Assembly (NCBI GenBank): GCA_024636405.1
Contig: JAGXHC010000082.1
Span: 1 to 5,783, forward strand
Length of the DNA: 5,783 nt
Reading direction: 5' to 3'
From: Sulfitobacter sp.
GTDB lineage: Bacteria; Pseudomonadota; Alphaproteobacteria; Rhodobacterales; Rhodobacteraceae
In this document: positions 1-5,767 of the stretch, one piece after another
Layout of the letters: the number at the start of each line of letters is the position of its first letter
How positions within the stretch are numbered: position 1 is the first letter of the stretch
Notes under the pieces: model-generated
What the model was told of the DNA's origin: nothing
The model's input: the letters and a program-made list of their open reading frames with translations, nothing else
The model's database searches: none
Translations under genes and position numbers: made by a program

Positions 1-670
1 CAATCTGCAACACATGATCGCCTGCTGCATGGCCCAGTGTGTCATTCACCGCCTTGAAATAATCAAGGTCGATGTGCATCACCGCAAACGACGTGCTGCC
101 GTCTATCTGCCGGGACAGAATATGCTCCAGTGCGCGGCGGTTCTTCAACCCGGTCAACGTGTCGGTAAACGCCTGTTCCTCTGCCGCGATCTTGGCCCCC
201 TGAAGACGCAGGTTCAACCGCCGCGACGCTTCCATTGCGGCTGATTTCGCCTCCACTAGATACAGCATTTCGATGGCCAGATCGGTCGCCGCGAAATCAG
301 CATTGGTCAGGGAATAATCCCGCACTCCGTCAAGGATCGAGATGCCGAACGACAGGTTTACGATCATCCGCCCCTCGCCCAGTGAGGTGGGCACAATGAC
401 ACCTTTCAGCTCTGTCCGGGGTGCGTCGCGCATTTGCAGGTGCAGCTTTACCTCGGTTGCGCGGCGCAGATCGTCCATACCGGAGATGGAACGGGGCCGC
501 AGAACGGCAAAAACCTCAAGAAACCGCTGTCCGGCCAATGCAAGATCAGGTCGCAATTTCTGAATGGTGGGGCCTGCGTGGTTGATATGCCCCGTCGCGC
601 TAAGCATCAGGTGCATGGGACACAACACATCAAGAACGTCTGTCAAATTGTGGCGGTCGGTGTCCGTCAT
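1..670 (-). CDS. Diguanylate cyclase with N-terminal HNOBA-type domain (GGDEF), C-terminus outside window
   Basis: Predicted to make cyclic-di-GMP from two GTP in the cytoplasm, under control of the H-NOX protein encoded just upstream. I translated 223 residues by hand from the minus strand. Residues about 15-140 resemble the HNOBA (haem-NO-binding-associated, PAS-like) domain of soluble guanylate cyclases, with an LCPMHLMLS opening and a late SILDGVRDYSLTNADF segment. Residues about 142-168 (EAKSAAMEASRRLNLRLQ onward) look like the signalling coiled coil that follows HNOBA. The GGDEF domain then begins with TDTLTGLKNRRAL (169-181) and IDLDYFKAVNDTLGHAAGD (200-218), which holds the metal-binding Asp and the usual N/D/H/G residues. 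The window ends before the GGDEF signature and the I-site, so catalytic competence cannot be judged. The ATG at 670 overlaps the H-NOX stop codon as ATGA, implying translational coupling. Identification as GGDEF is very secure; the HNOBA call rests on pattern and gene context. Confidence 0.9.
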   Translation of the reverse strand, partial: MTDTDRHNLTDVLDVLCPMHLMLSATGHINHAGPTIQKLRPDLALAGQRFLEVFAVLRPRSISGMDDLRRATEVKLHLQMRDAPRTELKGVIVPTSLGEGRMIVNLSFGISILDGVRDYSLTNADFAATDLAIEMLYLVEAKSAAMEASRRLNLRLQGAKIAAEEQAFTDTLTGLKNRRALEHILSRQIDGSTSFAVMHIDLDYFKAVNDTLGHAAGDHVLQI

Positions 671-1254
671 CCGATCCGCGCCCCCAGATCGAAACTGCGT
701 CCGTTGGCAAAATCGGTTTCCACCAGCGTGATCGACAGGGTTTCAGTCCCCTGCCCGCCCCCGGTATGATCCAAAAGCGCGAGCGCGCCGTAATCATCCG
801 CCATGACCCGCAACAGGCCCATCATGACATATCCGTAGCCCGCAACCGGGCTGCTGCAGATCAGGCTGAACTGCCGCTTGGCATGTTCGCGCAATTCCAC
901 ACGCGGCAGGTTCAGGTCAGCAACGGCAAGCCGCGCCCGGTCCGGCAGGTCGTCCAGTGAATGAAGAAAGTCCTCGAAATTGACGCCGCCGAAACGCAGC
1001 AGGCGGCGGACCGGTTCAAGACCGTGATGAGAAACGACAAATGCGCCGATATCTTCCATGACTTCAGAACGTGGTCGGTTCAGCACCTGCGCCGCCGCAT
1101 CCAAAACCCGCGGCGTGATCGCGTCATCATATGTCAGCATCGCTTCAAAATCGACAAAGTCGAGCCCGGCAAGCTGCGCCACTTCTGCCCACCGCTCGGC
1201 CCCGTAGTGGTCACAAACAAAGCTTTGTATGCTGCGGTTGATTAGCCCGTGCAT
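667..1254 (-). CDS. H-NOX (HNOB) domain protein with degenerate haem-binding residues
   Basis: A stand-alone 195-residue protein of the H-NOX family, which normally binds haem b and senses NO (or O2) and passes the signal to a partner kinase or cyclase. Family marks are the MHGLIN start, FV at 12-13, YG at 17-18 and Trp22, with full-length family size. Aligned without gaps to the known pattern, the position of the proximal haem-ligand His (His102 of the Thermoanaerobacter protein, His105 of sGC beta1) is Pro104. The YxSxR positions are Cys133, Ser135 and Val137. The spacings of 29, 31 and 33 residues are exactly those of canonical members, so the alignment looks sound. His98 lies in the same helix, six residues earlier. 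The frame is intact, so this is not obvious decay. A GAGG Shine-Dalgarno (1260-1263) sits 5 nt before the ATG. The stop overlaps the start of the HNOBA-GGDEF cyclase. Family membership is secure; haem loss is inferred. Confidence 0.93.
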   Translation of the reverse strand: MHGLINRSIQSFVCDHYGAERWAEVAQLAGLDFVDFEAMLTYDDAITPRVLDAAAQVLNRPRSEVMEDIGAFVVSHHGLEPVRRLLRFGGVNFEDFLHSLDDLPDRARLAVADLNLPRVELREHAKRQFSLICSSPVAGYGYVMMGLLRVMADDYGALALLDHTGGGQGTETLSITLVETDFANGRSFDLGARIG

Positions 1255-1585: not shown

Positions 1586-3148
1586 TCAGAAATCGGTCGG
1601 CGCGCCGCCTTCGGATTTCCGCCGCGCCACAAAATCCGCCAACTCGTCACGGATCGCAATGTCCATTGGCGGCTCCTCGAAACTGGCGACAATTTCCTTG
1701 AACATGTGATGCGCGCGCTCCGCCGTCCAGATGCCACCCGCGACTTCCCACCCTTCGTAGTTCTTCCAGTCTGACAGGAAAGGCTGGTAGAATGCCGTCG
1801 TATAGCGGTCCTGCGTGTGTTGAATGCCAAAGAAATGGCCCGCACTTCCCACCGATTTAATCGCATCCAGCGCAATCTCATCCGGTCCGGTCGCGGTGAT
1901 CATCGGGTCCATATACCGTTGGATCTGTTGCAGGATCTCGCAGTCCATGATGAATTTCTCCGGGCTGGCAATCAATCCGCCCTCCAGCCAACCCGCCGCA
2001 TGGTAAACCATGTTCGTACCTGATTGCACCGCCGCCCAAAGACTGTTGGAGGTTTCCCACATCGCCTGTCCGTCCGGTACATTGGCGGCGCAGACACCCG
2101 ACGACCGCATCGGCAGATTATAAAACCGCGCCAGCTGGCCTGTCATTTGGGTCGCACGCATGTATTCCGGTGTGCCAAAGGCGGGCGCACCGGATTTCAT
2201 ATCCACGTTGGAGGTGAACGTACCGATCGCACAGGGGCAGCCAGGGTTGATGATCTGCGCCAGCACCACAGCACAAAGCGCTTCTGCCAGCGATTGCGCC
2301 ACGGCGCCTGACATCGTGACAGGCGCCATCGCGCCTGCCAGCGTAAAGGGGGTCACCACCAGCCCCTGACCGCGCCGCGCAAGCCGCATCCAGCCATCCA
2401 GCATCGGGATATCGTGCTTTAGCGGCGAGGTGGAATTGATGTTGGTGTACATGCGCGGGGAGGCGTCAAATTCTTCATGGGTCAGCCCGCCGGCAATGCG
2501 CACCATCTCCATCACGTCTTCGACCCGTTCAGCGCCAAGACTATAGGCATGCATCACCTTGTCGGTGATCGTCAGCTTGTCAAAAAGCACATCAAGATGG
2601 CGTACGCTGGCATGAATGTCGCAGGGTTCCACCGGATATCCACCGGCGAAGTGGATGCAATTGAAATACTGGGTCAGCCGCAGCAGATCCTTGCACATTT
2701 CGCGCGTGCCGGGGACCTTCTTGCCGATGGCCATGTCCCAATAGTTTGGCGGCGAAGAGACGTTGCCGAACACCATGTTTTTGCCGCCAATGGTGATCTT
2801 GCGTTCCACATTGCGCGGCGTGAGCGTGAATTCCGACGGCGCCTTGGCGATCCATTCCATAACAAAGTCGCGGCCCATGCGCACGTTTTCACCATTGATG
2901 GTGCAACCTGCCTTGCGCAGGATTTCCAGCGCTTCATGATTGAGAAACTCAATCCCGATTTCTTCGAGAATGCGCATTGCCCCATCATGGATCGCCTCCA
3001 CCCCTTCGGGGCCAAGAGGCTCTGTCGGGCGGTCGATATTGATCGGGGGAGACCAGGGCATCTGTTCGATGACAGAGGTGCCGCGCCGGGTCTGAGCGCC
3101 GGACCTGCCGCCGTGGCGGGTTCTGCGTTTCGATGCGGTATCGGCCAT
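1586..3148 (-). CDS. MttB-family (trimethylamine/glycine betaine-type) methyltransferase, non-pyrrolysine
   Basis: A 520-residue protein of the MttB superfamily (COG5598). Characterised members transfer a methyl group from trimethylamine, glycine betaine or related quaternary amines to a corrinoid protein. Recognisable segments are a basic Arg-rich N-terminal tail (about 8-22), IHDGAMRILEEIGIEF (53-68), PPNYWDMAIG (133-142), the SPLKHDIPMLDGWM region (241-254), NVPDGQAMWE (356-365) and YHAAGWLEGGL (382-392). The archaeal enzyme carries pyrrolysine shortly before a PD-x-Q motif. The corresponding place here appears to be Asn356 before VPDGQ, and the frame contains no amber codon, so this is a non-Pyl paralogue with unknown substrate. 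The ATG at 3148 has a strong GAGGAGG Shine-Dalgarno at spacing 7. No corrinoid protein, MtbA-like partner or reductive activase is in the window. Family is secure; substrate is not assignable. Confidence 0.93.
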   Translation of the reverse strand: MADTASKRRTRHGGRSGAQTRRGTSVIEQMPWSPPINIDRPTEPLGPEGVEAIHDGAMRILEEIGIEFLNHEALEILRKAGCTINGENVRMGRDFVMEWIAKAPSEFTLTPRNVERKITIGGKNMVFGNVSSPPNYWDMAIGKKVPGTREMCKDLLRLTQYFNCIHFAGGYPVEPCDIHASVRHLDVLFDKLTITDKVMHAYSLGAERVEDVMEMVRIAGGLTHEEFDASPRMYTNINSTSPLKHDIPMLDGWMRLARRGQGLVVTPFTLAGAMAPVTMSGAVAQSLAEALCAVVLAQIINPGCPCAIGTFTSNVDMKSGAPAFGTPEYMRATQMTGQLARFYNLPMRSSGVCAANVPDGQAMWETSNSLWAAVQSGTNMVYHAAGWLEGGLIASPEKFIMDCEILQQIQRYMDPMITATGPDEIALDAIKSVGSAGHFFGIQHTQDRYTTAFYQPFLSDWKNYEGWEVAGGIWTAERAHHMFKEIVASFEEPPMDIAIRDELADFVARRKSEGGAPTDF

Positions 3149-4258: not shown

Positions 4259-4363
4259 GGGGCGCGTCCGGTTGTCATGCGTTTGGAAACCCTTTGTTAA
4301 CGAATAGAGAAGACAACGGAAACACTAACATCTGGTCTTTTATTGCGCGGAAAGGATGACGGC
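4259..4363. promoter_or_regulatory. pleD: Divergent promoter region between the DUF3572 gene and pleD
   Basis: About 105 bp must carry both promoters. A GTTAAC palindrome (4296-4301) lies near the centre of a spaced inverted repeat, GTTGTC (4271-4276) and GACAAC (4312-4317). TTGTCA (4272-4277) is a fair -35 for plus-strand transcription, but the hexamer 17 nt later (TGTTAA) is a poor -10. GTTAAC resembles half of a CtrA site, but no second TTAA occurs at the expected 7-nt spacing. An AAGGA Shine-Dalgarno (4352-4356) serves the GTG start of pleD. Confidence 0.4.
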
Positions 4364-5767
4364 GTGCAGGGCAAAATCCTTATCATCGATGCGATCGCCA
4401 CCAACCGCATCGTCCTGAAGGTCAAGCTGGCCTCCGCATTCTATCAGGTGATCCAGGCTTCCACCATCGAGGAAGCAACCGCGATTGCCCGCAAGCAGCG
4501 GCCGGATTTGATTATATCGTCACTGTCTATGCCTGACGGGACGGCCATCGACCTGTGTGATCGGCTCAAGCGTGTCGCACTGACGCGCAATATTCCCATT
4601 CTGGTCATCGGCAGCCGCGCCTGCGCCGACACCCGCATTGCAACACTAGAGGCAGGCGTGCACGATGTGCTGTTGAAACCCATTGATGACACGCTTCTTC
4701 TCAGCCGGGTGCGCAGCCTGATCCGGGCGCATAATGCTTCTGCCGAATGGCAGATGCGCGATGATACCAGCCGCGCGCTGGGGCTTGCGGAACCGGCTGC
4801 GGAATTTGTTGCCAAAGGTCGGTGCGTTCTGGTCAGCAATGACACCCCAACCGCCCAAGGGTGGGCCATGCGTCTGCGTCCCATTTTGCGCTGCACCCTC
4901 ACGCTGGCGAAACCCGAGAATGCGATACGCGACCTGCAACCGAATGCAGTGCCGGACGTCTTTGTCCTTGTGGTGCCCGAAGACCCGACTGCCGCGGCAG
5001 CAAGCCTGCGTATGATTTCAACGCTTCGATCCAATGCCAGCACCCGCCACGCAGGCGTGTTGATCCTGCAAACGACGCCTGATTCCGGCCAGGCCTCCAC
5101 AGCTCTTGATCTGGGTGCCGACGATCTGATGGCCGATGGTTTTGACCCCGCGGAAATCGTGCTGCGTCTGGAGGCGTTGTTGCGTCGCAAGCGCGTCGCC
5201 GAACAATTGCGTGCCACGGTGCGCACCGGGTTGAAGGCGGCCGTTTTCGATCCGCTGACGGGTCTGCACAACCGGCGCTATGCCAAACCCCATCTGACGC
5301 GCATCGCAGAGCATGCCCACGCCACCGGACGCACATTTGCGGTGATGATTGCCGATCTGGACCATTTCAAACGTATCAATGATCATTACGGACATGCCGC
5401 AGGCGATGCGGTGCTGGTCGAAACGGCCCGGCGGTTGCGTGGCAATCTGCGTGCCATGGATCTGGTCGCAAGAATTGGCGGCGAAGAGTTTCTGATCGTA
5501 ATGCCAGGCACTTGCCGGACACAGGCGCGCGCCGCCGCCAAACGGCTGTGTCAGGACATTTCGGCAACGCCGTTTGCCATTCCGCGCGGCGACCCTGCGA
5601 TCGCCGTCACGATCAGCATCGGAATGGCCATCGGGGGTGGTGCAGATCAAGGTGGTTTCCCCAATCTTGCGACTGCTGACATGCTGTTGGACGAGGCAGA
5701 CAAGGCGCTCTACGCGGCCAAGCTGAGCGGTCGAAATCAGGTCACACTCAGCCGCCCGGCGGCCTGA
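4364..5767 (+). CDS. pleD: PleD-like diguanylate cyclase, REC-REC-GGDEF, with degenerate receiver domains
   Basis: A 467-residue cytoplasmic protein with PleD domain order: REC1 (about 1-122), REC2 (about 152-280) and GGDEF (about 295-460). The output domain looks fully active: FDPLTGLHNRRY, IADLDHFKRINDHYGHAAGD, the GGEEF signature (372-376) and a primary inhibitory RxxD site (Arg363-Asp366) five residues before it. REC1 aligns without gaps to Caulobacter PleD. Asp9 and Lys105 are kept, but Asp10 is Ala10 and phosphoacceptor Asp53 is Ser53 (PDLIISSLSMPDG). REC2 lacks the acidic pair (Ser158, Asn159) and the phosphosite (Val203), as expected for the adaptor domain of this family. I chose GTG at 4364 because AAGGA lies 7 nt upstream and the protein then starts MQGKILIID, like other receivers. 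A TTG seven codons earlier (4343) has no good ribosome-binding site. Confidence 0.93.
   Translation: MQGKILIIDAIATNRIVLKVKLASAFYQVIQASTIEEATAIARKQRPDLIISSLSMPDGTAIDLCDRLKRVALTRNIPILVIGSRACADTRIATLEAGVHDVLLKPIDDTLLLSRVRSLIRAHNASAEWQMRDDTSRALGLAEPAAEFVAKGRCVLVSNDTPTAQGWAMRLRPILRCTLTLAKPENAIRDLQPNAVPDVFVLVVPEDPTAAAASLRMISTLRSNASTRHAGVLILQTTPDSGQASTALDLGADDLMADGFDPAEIVLRLEALLRRKRVAEQLRATVRTGLKAAVFDPLTGLHNRRYAKPHLTRIAEHAHATGRTFAVMIADLDHFKRINDHYGHAAGDAVLVETARRLRGNLRAMDLVARIGGEEFLIVMPGTCRTQARAAAKRLCQDISATPFAIPRGDPAIAVTISIGMAIGGGADQGGFPNLATADMLLDEADKALYAAKLSGRNQVTLSRPAA

Follow-up and report, generated by a model that had tools for sequence, protein, structure and literature searches.

An H-NOX gene that overlaps a diguanylate cyclase gene

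Here, we present an analysis of an hnoX-like gene and its partner diguanylate cyclase (DGC) gene from Sulfitobacter sp. (assembly GCA_024636405.1, contig JAGXHC010000082.1). Both genes lie on the minus strand of a stretch of 5,783 nucleotides, which is referred to in its entirety as the window. The hnoX-like gene is located at 667..1254, as placed by the first-pass annotation of this DNA, with its ATG at 1254 and its stop codon at 669-667, and encodes an H-NOX-fold protein of 195 amino acids. It shares four bases with the DGC gene, whose start codon overlaps its stop codon (ATGA; 667..670). The DGC gene (2..670) is incomplete at the window end; it encodes an HNOBA-like N-terminus, for which the Pfam match is weak (21.2 bits, under the cut-off of 23.4), and a GGDEF domain, and the window copy ends ahead of the GGDEF motif. 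The H-NOX protein matches the PF07700 (HNOB) profile well above the curated cut-off (1e-25; 91 bits versus 25.5). The structure prediction proposed in the first-pass annotation yielded an H-NOX fold (predicted local distance difference test score, 90), and the top matches among solved structures are H-NOX domains. Gly70 and Gly146, which we take to be the hinge glycines of H-NOX, are conserved in all 99 proteins of the lineage described below.

Heme-binding, nitric oxide (NO)-sensing H-NOX proteins are recognized by a proximal His and a YxSxR motif, and the window protein lacks both. In a gap-free phmmer alignment to solved structures, FLHSLDDLPDRA is opposite FMENLDNLHARV of Nostoc Alr2278 (2o09, 4iah), which differs in having the ligand His and YxSxR; Pro104 (codon CCG; 943..945) falls opposite the ligand His. 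Similarly, LICSSPVAGYG is opposite LHYQSTRAGLA, placing C133-S-S135-P-V137 (844..858) at Y-x-S-x-R, of which only Ser135 is kept. In canonical Rhodobacterales paralogs, the His occupies position 104 and the Tyr position 133, i.e., the 29-residue spacing is the same as in the window protein. The first-pass annotation had read both sites in this way, and misalignment at residue 104 is ruled out by the gap-free alignment together with this spacing. A profile comparison also pairs Pro104 with the canonical His, in an overall match that is weak (probability, 32%; E-value, 0.0005). A sequencing error at codon 104, which would have undermined the reading, is ruled out by the occurrence of Pro at this position in 111 of the 120 nearest proteins.

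Loss of the heme-anchoring residues is a property of the lineage

Loci were sampled as 30 plus 100 further stretches, with the better-scoring places taken first, and the locus-based shares given here refer to the fetched loci. The 113 lineage hits correspond to 99 distinct proteins and the 18 canonical hits to 16; both the 99 lineage proteins and the 120 nearest proteins include the window protein. Two further loci (L017 and L034) are outside these counts; they later matched the canonical profile, and the His is present by eye.

Tabulating orthologs, as the first-pass annotation had suggested, we found that residue 104 is Pro in 72 of the 99 lineage proteins, His in 10, Asn in four, Ala in three, Thr, Gln, and Ser in two each, and Asp, Lys, Arg, and Gly in one each. 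YxSxR is present in 0/99 of these proteins and in 0/237 lineage proteins from two protein searches, and Ser135 is kept in just 21/99. By contrast, residue 104 is His in 15 and Gln in one of the 16 canonical proteins, while the Tyr, Ser, and Arg are each present in 16/16. A second canonical sample (n = 120) gave His104, Tyr, and Ser in 120 proteins each and Arg in 112; Pro112 is also present in 120/120, a position at which the window protein has Ala (919..921). In the 14 fetched genomes that carry both kinds, the lineage copy has Pro in 12, Thr in one, Gln in one, and His in none. Because YxSxR is absent from all 99 lineage proteins and Pro104 is found in 72 of them, while the canonical paralogs keep the His, the loss of the heme-anchoring residues is a property of the lineage as opposed to a paralog in the same bacterial family that retains them. 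The first-pass annotation had implied that the window protein is a rarity; rather, most members of this lineage have lost the His, as has already been described in print. The canonical-type protein with Gln in place of the ligand His is encoded at L019 1384-2037 (+) and keeps the Tyr, Ser, and Arg.

Among other residues that could ligate heme or react with a signal, His98 (961..963), which the first-pass annotation proposed as an alternative ligand, is present in 62/99 lineage proteins, Cys133 in 53/99, His76 in 71/99, and His2 in 88/99; other Cys residues are less common (Cys14, 19/99; Cys11, 29/99; Cys55, 24/99). Close to the window protein, these residues are more constant, and the 120 nearest proteins have Cys133 in 120, His2 in 120, His76 in 109, and His98 in 108. 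Their residue 104 is Pro in 111, Ala in five, His in three, and Ser in one. The near-invariant, lineage-specific residues are R83, R84, R87, G90, R106, A152, D153, D154, and Y155. From their conservation, residues 83-90, 106, and 146-158 (window about 1008-781, minus strand) are a candidate surface for a partner or ligand.

The lineage and canonical kinds are split by one branch (support of 93 in FastTree; long branches were flagged). Within the family to which L001, an uncultured Tateyamaria, belongs, 198 genomes were sampled and 138 carry HNOB. In an order search, 118 of 149 genomes had a match, 116 of them at >89 bits, while 31 had none; those scoring between 111 and 154 bits are counted without individual inspection. 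A phylum search gave matches in 61 of 398 genomes, and the 22 genomes with matches of >100 bits are all also among those of the order search.

A minority of the lineage has His104

One genome with His104 is that of Dinoroseobacter shibae DFL 12, as its plasmid contig (genome G036) is 100% identical to NC_009955 over 6,000 bases. The D. shibae H-NOX protein has His104 and CIWHR at 133-137. Its relatives at 99% and 87% identity also have His104, while one at 81% has Asn and one at 70% has Arg. Pooling the 99 proteins from loci with the 237 from the protein searches gave 336 rows, and in the 301 of these that are <92% identical, we found Trp or His at position 135 in 30 of 36 His104 rows versus 48 of 265 others (Fisher test, 1e-14, with kinship ignored). 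Because the tree yields too few independent pairs on starred branches (only seven, with about 2.6 going the same way, none the opposite way, and a median p of 0.25), we regard the apparent association of His104 with Trp/His135 as a lead rather than a result.

At 59 other columns, His104 members are not more similar to canonical proteins (0.231 versus 0.22). The tree requires 10 changes at residue 104 when the canonical rows are included and eight within the lineage. However, a single clade of the ten His104 rows is not rejected by an approximately unbiased test (p = 0.41), and the His may have been either kept or regained. It is conceivable, if rather doubtful, that the cyclase-coupled H-NOX proteins of the Rhodobacterales are a cofactor-switching family of sensors, most of which would have given up heme, their pocket now taking another ligand or none, while some, such as that of D. 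shibae, would keep or regain a heme-type state marked by His104 and Trp/His135; near relatives with the same partner would then obey different signals.

The partner cyclase is constant and the H-NOX gene is under purifying selection

A cyclase gene is adjacent to the H-NOX gene in 98 of the 99 lineage loci, the window included, and in 0/16 canonical loci, although the latter extend over just 2.3 to 3.5 kb. GGDEF is present in 97/97 partners other than the incomplete one of the window. The ratio of nonsynonymous to synonymous substitution rates (dN/dS) of the H-NOX gene is 0.12 relative to the homolog in L027, with 75% identity, and 24 columns are invariant over 123 aligned lineage members. Selection on the gene is purifying. 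Together, these findings support the suggestion of the first-pass annotation that the protein is kept for a purpose.

Of the loci, 78 extend over at least 9 kb; an MTTB match is present in 50 of these and a HAD match in 61, a count that may take in other HAD proteins. PleD was also considered as a conserved neighbor; its count is unusable, as the partner cyclase is matched by the GGDEF domain of PleD as well.

Relation to described H-NOX proteins

A 2022 review describes "group 5" H-NOX proteins, a network cluster built on the Paracoccus denitrificans H-NOX, of which <10% have the His and most have Pro; it lists GGDEF, HAD, and MTTB as neighbors and asks how group 5 senses NO or anything else (PMC8738867). 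The window protein has Pro104, and GGDEF, HAD, and MTTB genes are all present in the window. We conclude that the window protein is a group 5 H-NOX, a kind already in print. One difference is that the review gives group 5 no conserved Cys, while Cys133 is present in 53/99 of the lineage and 120/120 near the window.

In P. denitrificans, whose H-NOX lacks the His, deletion of hnoX lowers biofilm formation, while a mutant of both cyclases overproduces biofilm (PMC5588039); these phenotypes are also mentioned in the introduction of PMC12582929, and the 2017 paper (PMC5588039) credits earlier work for Rhodobacter sphaeroides and P. denitrificans. P. denitrificans HnoX resembles the window protein in having Pro104, a gene overlapping that of a GGDEF protein (DgcA), and no YxSxR; it differs in its sequence, with 36% identity in an alignment that covers 97% of the query, and in having Glu98, Ala133, Gln137, and Pro112. 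The D. shibae H-NOX/Dgc1 pair belongs to the same lineage, and its adjacent HNOBA-like/GGDEF partner is 50% identical to that of the window. According to two papers, NO-bound D. shibae H-NOX inhibits Dgc1. However, D. shibae H-NOX differs from the window protein at residue 104 and at 133-137, and because it has His104, its NO result should not be extended to Pro104 relatives. The "pseudo-H-NOX" of the soluble guanylate cyclase (sGC) alpha subunit is likewise an H-NOX domain without heme, and the human one also lacks the ligand His; it differs in being part of a guanylate cyclase subunit and in having its pocket filled by an N-terminal extension (PMC8196705).

In the literature searched, which was open-licence and left most subscription papers outside, we found no mention of a His at residue 104 in D. 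shibae H-NOX, of the invariance of Cys133 close to the window protein, or of the 104/135 association; these, together with the residue counts against a canonical control, are what the present analysis adds to prior work. Database records call these proteins "heme NO-binding," which reads as "NO sensor." Since most cyclase-coupled H-NOX proteins of the sampled Rhodobacterales lack the heme-holding residues, NO control of cyclic di-GMP should not be assumed for them on the strength of the D. shibae result. Close relatives that differ at residue 104 (three with His and 111 with Pro among the 120 nearest) would allow a comparison of what they sense.

Interpretation

Along the lines of the heme-free protein-protein control considered in the first-pass annotation, we suggest that the window H-NOX protein is probably without heme and keeps its cyclase in a state that is reached elsewhere through NO. 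In this model, the H-NOX protein would bind the HNOBA-like N-terminus of the cyclase, whose gene overlaps its own, and hold it in the state seen under NO in ordinary H-NOX/cyclase pairs. In such pairs, NO breaks the bond between iron and His. With no His bond to break, the inhibiting state would be the default, and the amount of H-NOX or some other input would determine how active the cyclase is. In ordinary H-NOX proteins, displacement of the proximal His by NO is accompanied by a shift of the subdomains (PMC7108781), and sGC beta H105C, which has no heme, resembles the activated state (PMC8196705); a default acting state may follow from these two observations. Default inhibition fits the P. 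denitrificans phenotypes, which show that a relative lacking the His affects this pathway in vivo. The fold, the lost residues, the conservation, and the constant partner are observed here, while absence of heme, direct contact, and default inhibition are inferred; we put the probability of this reading at roughly 0.55.

Several observations weigh against it. A Shewanella oneidensis H103G structure is titled as Fe(II)CO, which makes heme possible without the His, and sGC alpha is without heme through a filled pocket and not only through residue loss (PMC8196705). In the model of Kumar and Spiro, P. denitrificans H-NOX still responds to NO as its signal (PMC5588039). The lean in our structural comparisons is only a hint, as Z differences of <1 are ties and the alignment to 8hbe has a root mean square deviation of 10.5. 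Moreover, the His104 of three of the 120 nearest proteins and its apparent association with Trp/His135 suggest that site 104 still matters, and pure default inhibition leaves the invariance of Cys133 near the window unexplained.

Among the alternatives, the old heme pocket might hold another small, probably hydrophobic ligand and still sense for the cyclase. We consider this unlikely; matches to BcsD and Bet3 are equally good for the model of a canonical control protein and, therefore, indicate likeness of fold class only.

Less likely again, the protein might still sense NO with a heme that is ligated by His2, His76, His98, or Cys133 or is bound weakly with no ligand from the protein. The near-constancy of these four residues in the 120 nearest proteins, the heme in the title of the H103G structure, and the reported action of D. 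shibae H-NOX with NO in the same lineage are all in line with this idea. On the other hand, YxSxR is gone in 99/99, His98, Cys133, and His76 are far from constant across the lineage, and D. shibae has His104. Ligation by His98 or Cys133, as proposed in the first-pass annotation, may occur in the close clade of the window protein (108/120 and 120/120, respectively). As general replacement ligands, however, these residues are unlikely, because P. denitrificans, which has an hnoX phenotype, has Glu98 and Ala133.

It is more improbable still that the protein is a redox or thiol sensor acting through Cys133, similar in idea to the heme-free redox response described for the zinc-site Cys residues of Vibrio cholerae H-NOX (PMC8738867). 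While Cys133 is present in 120/120 near relatives, it is the single well-kept Cys, so that there is no three-Cys zinc site, and P. denitrificans has Ala at this position.

Finally, decay of the gene is highly improbable and largely refuted by the low dN/dS, the 24 invariant columns, and the P. denitrificans phenotype (PMC5588039), even though the gene is split in one of the 116 lineage-type genomes of the order search (G268) and 31 of the 149 genomes are without a match. In the G268 genome (contig C2, 183911-184490), the lineage gene appears as two overlapping matches, and this copy looks broken or misassembled.

Additional observations

The other genes in the window encode, based on Pfam, an MTTB-family methyltransferase, a HAD phosphatase, a DUF3572 protein, and a PleD-like regulator. 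The MTTB-family protein (1586-3148, minus strand) reaches 258 bits with the model for trimethylamine methyltransferase, under the cut-off of 525. The PleD-like response regulator with GGDEF (4343-5767, plus strand) scores 361 bits, under the PleD cut-off of 474; with it, a second DGC gene is located nearby.

Two loci from the phylum search, L158 978-2231 (-) and L160 805-2337 (+), encode HNOB fused to a PilZ domain (Pfam). By eye, L158 retains the proximal His, while L160 seems to have Leu there yet retains Y-V-S-R-R. Many other matches of the phylum search are in frames of about 400-520 codons; the PilZ fusion was examined in L158 and L160 only.
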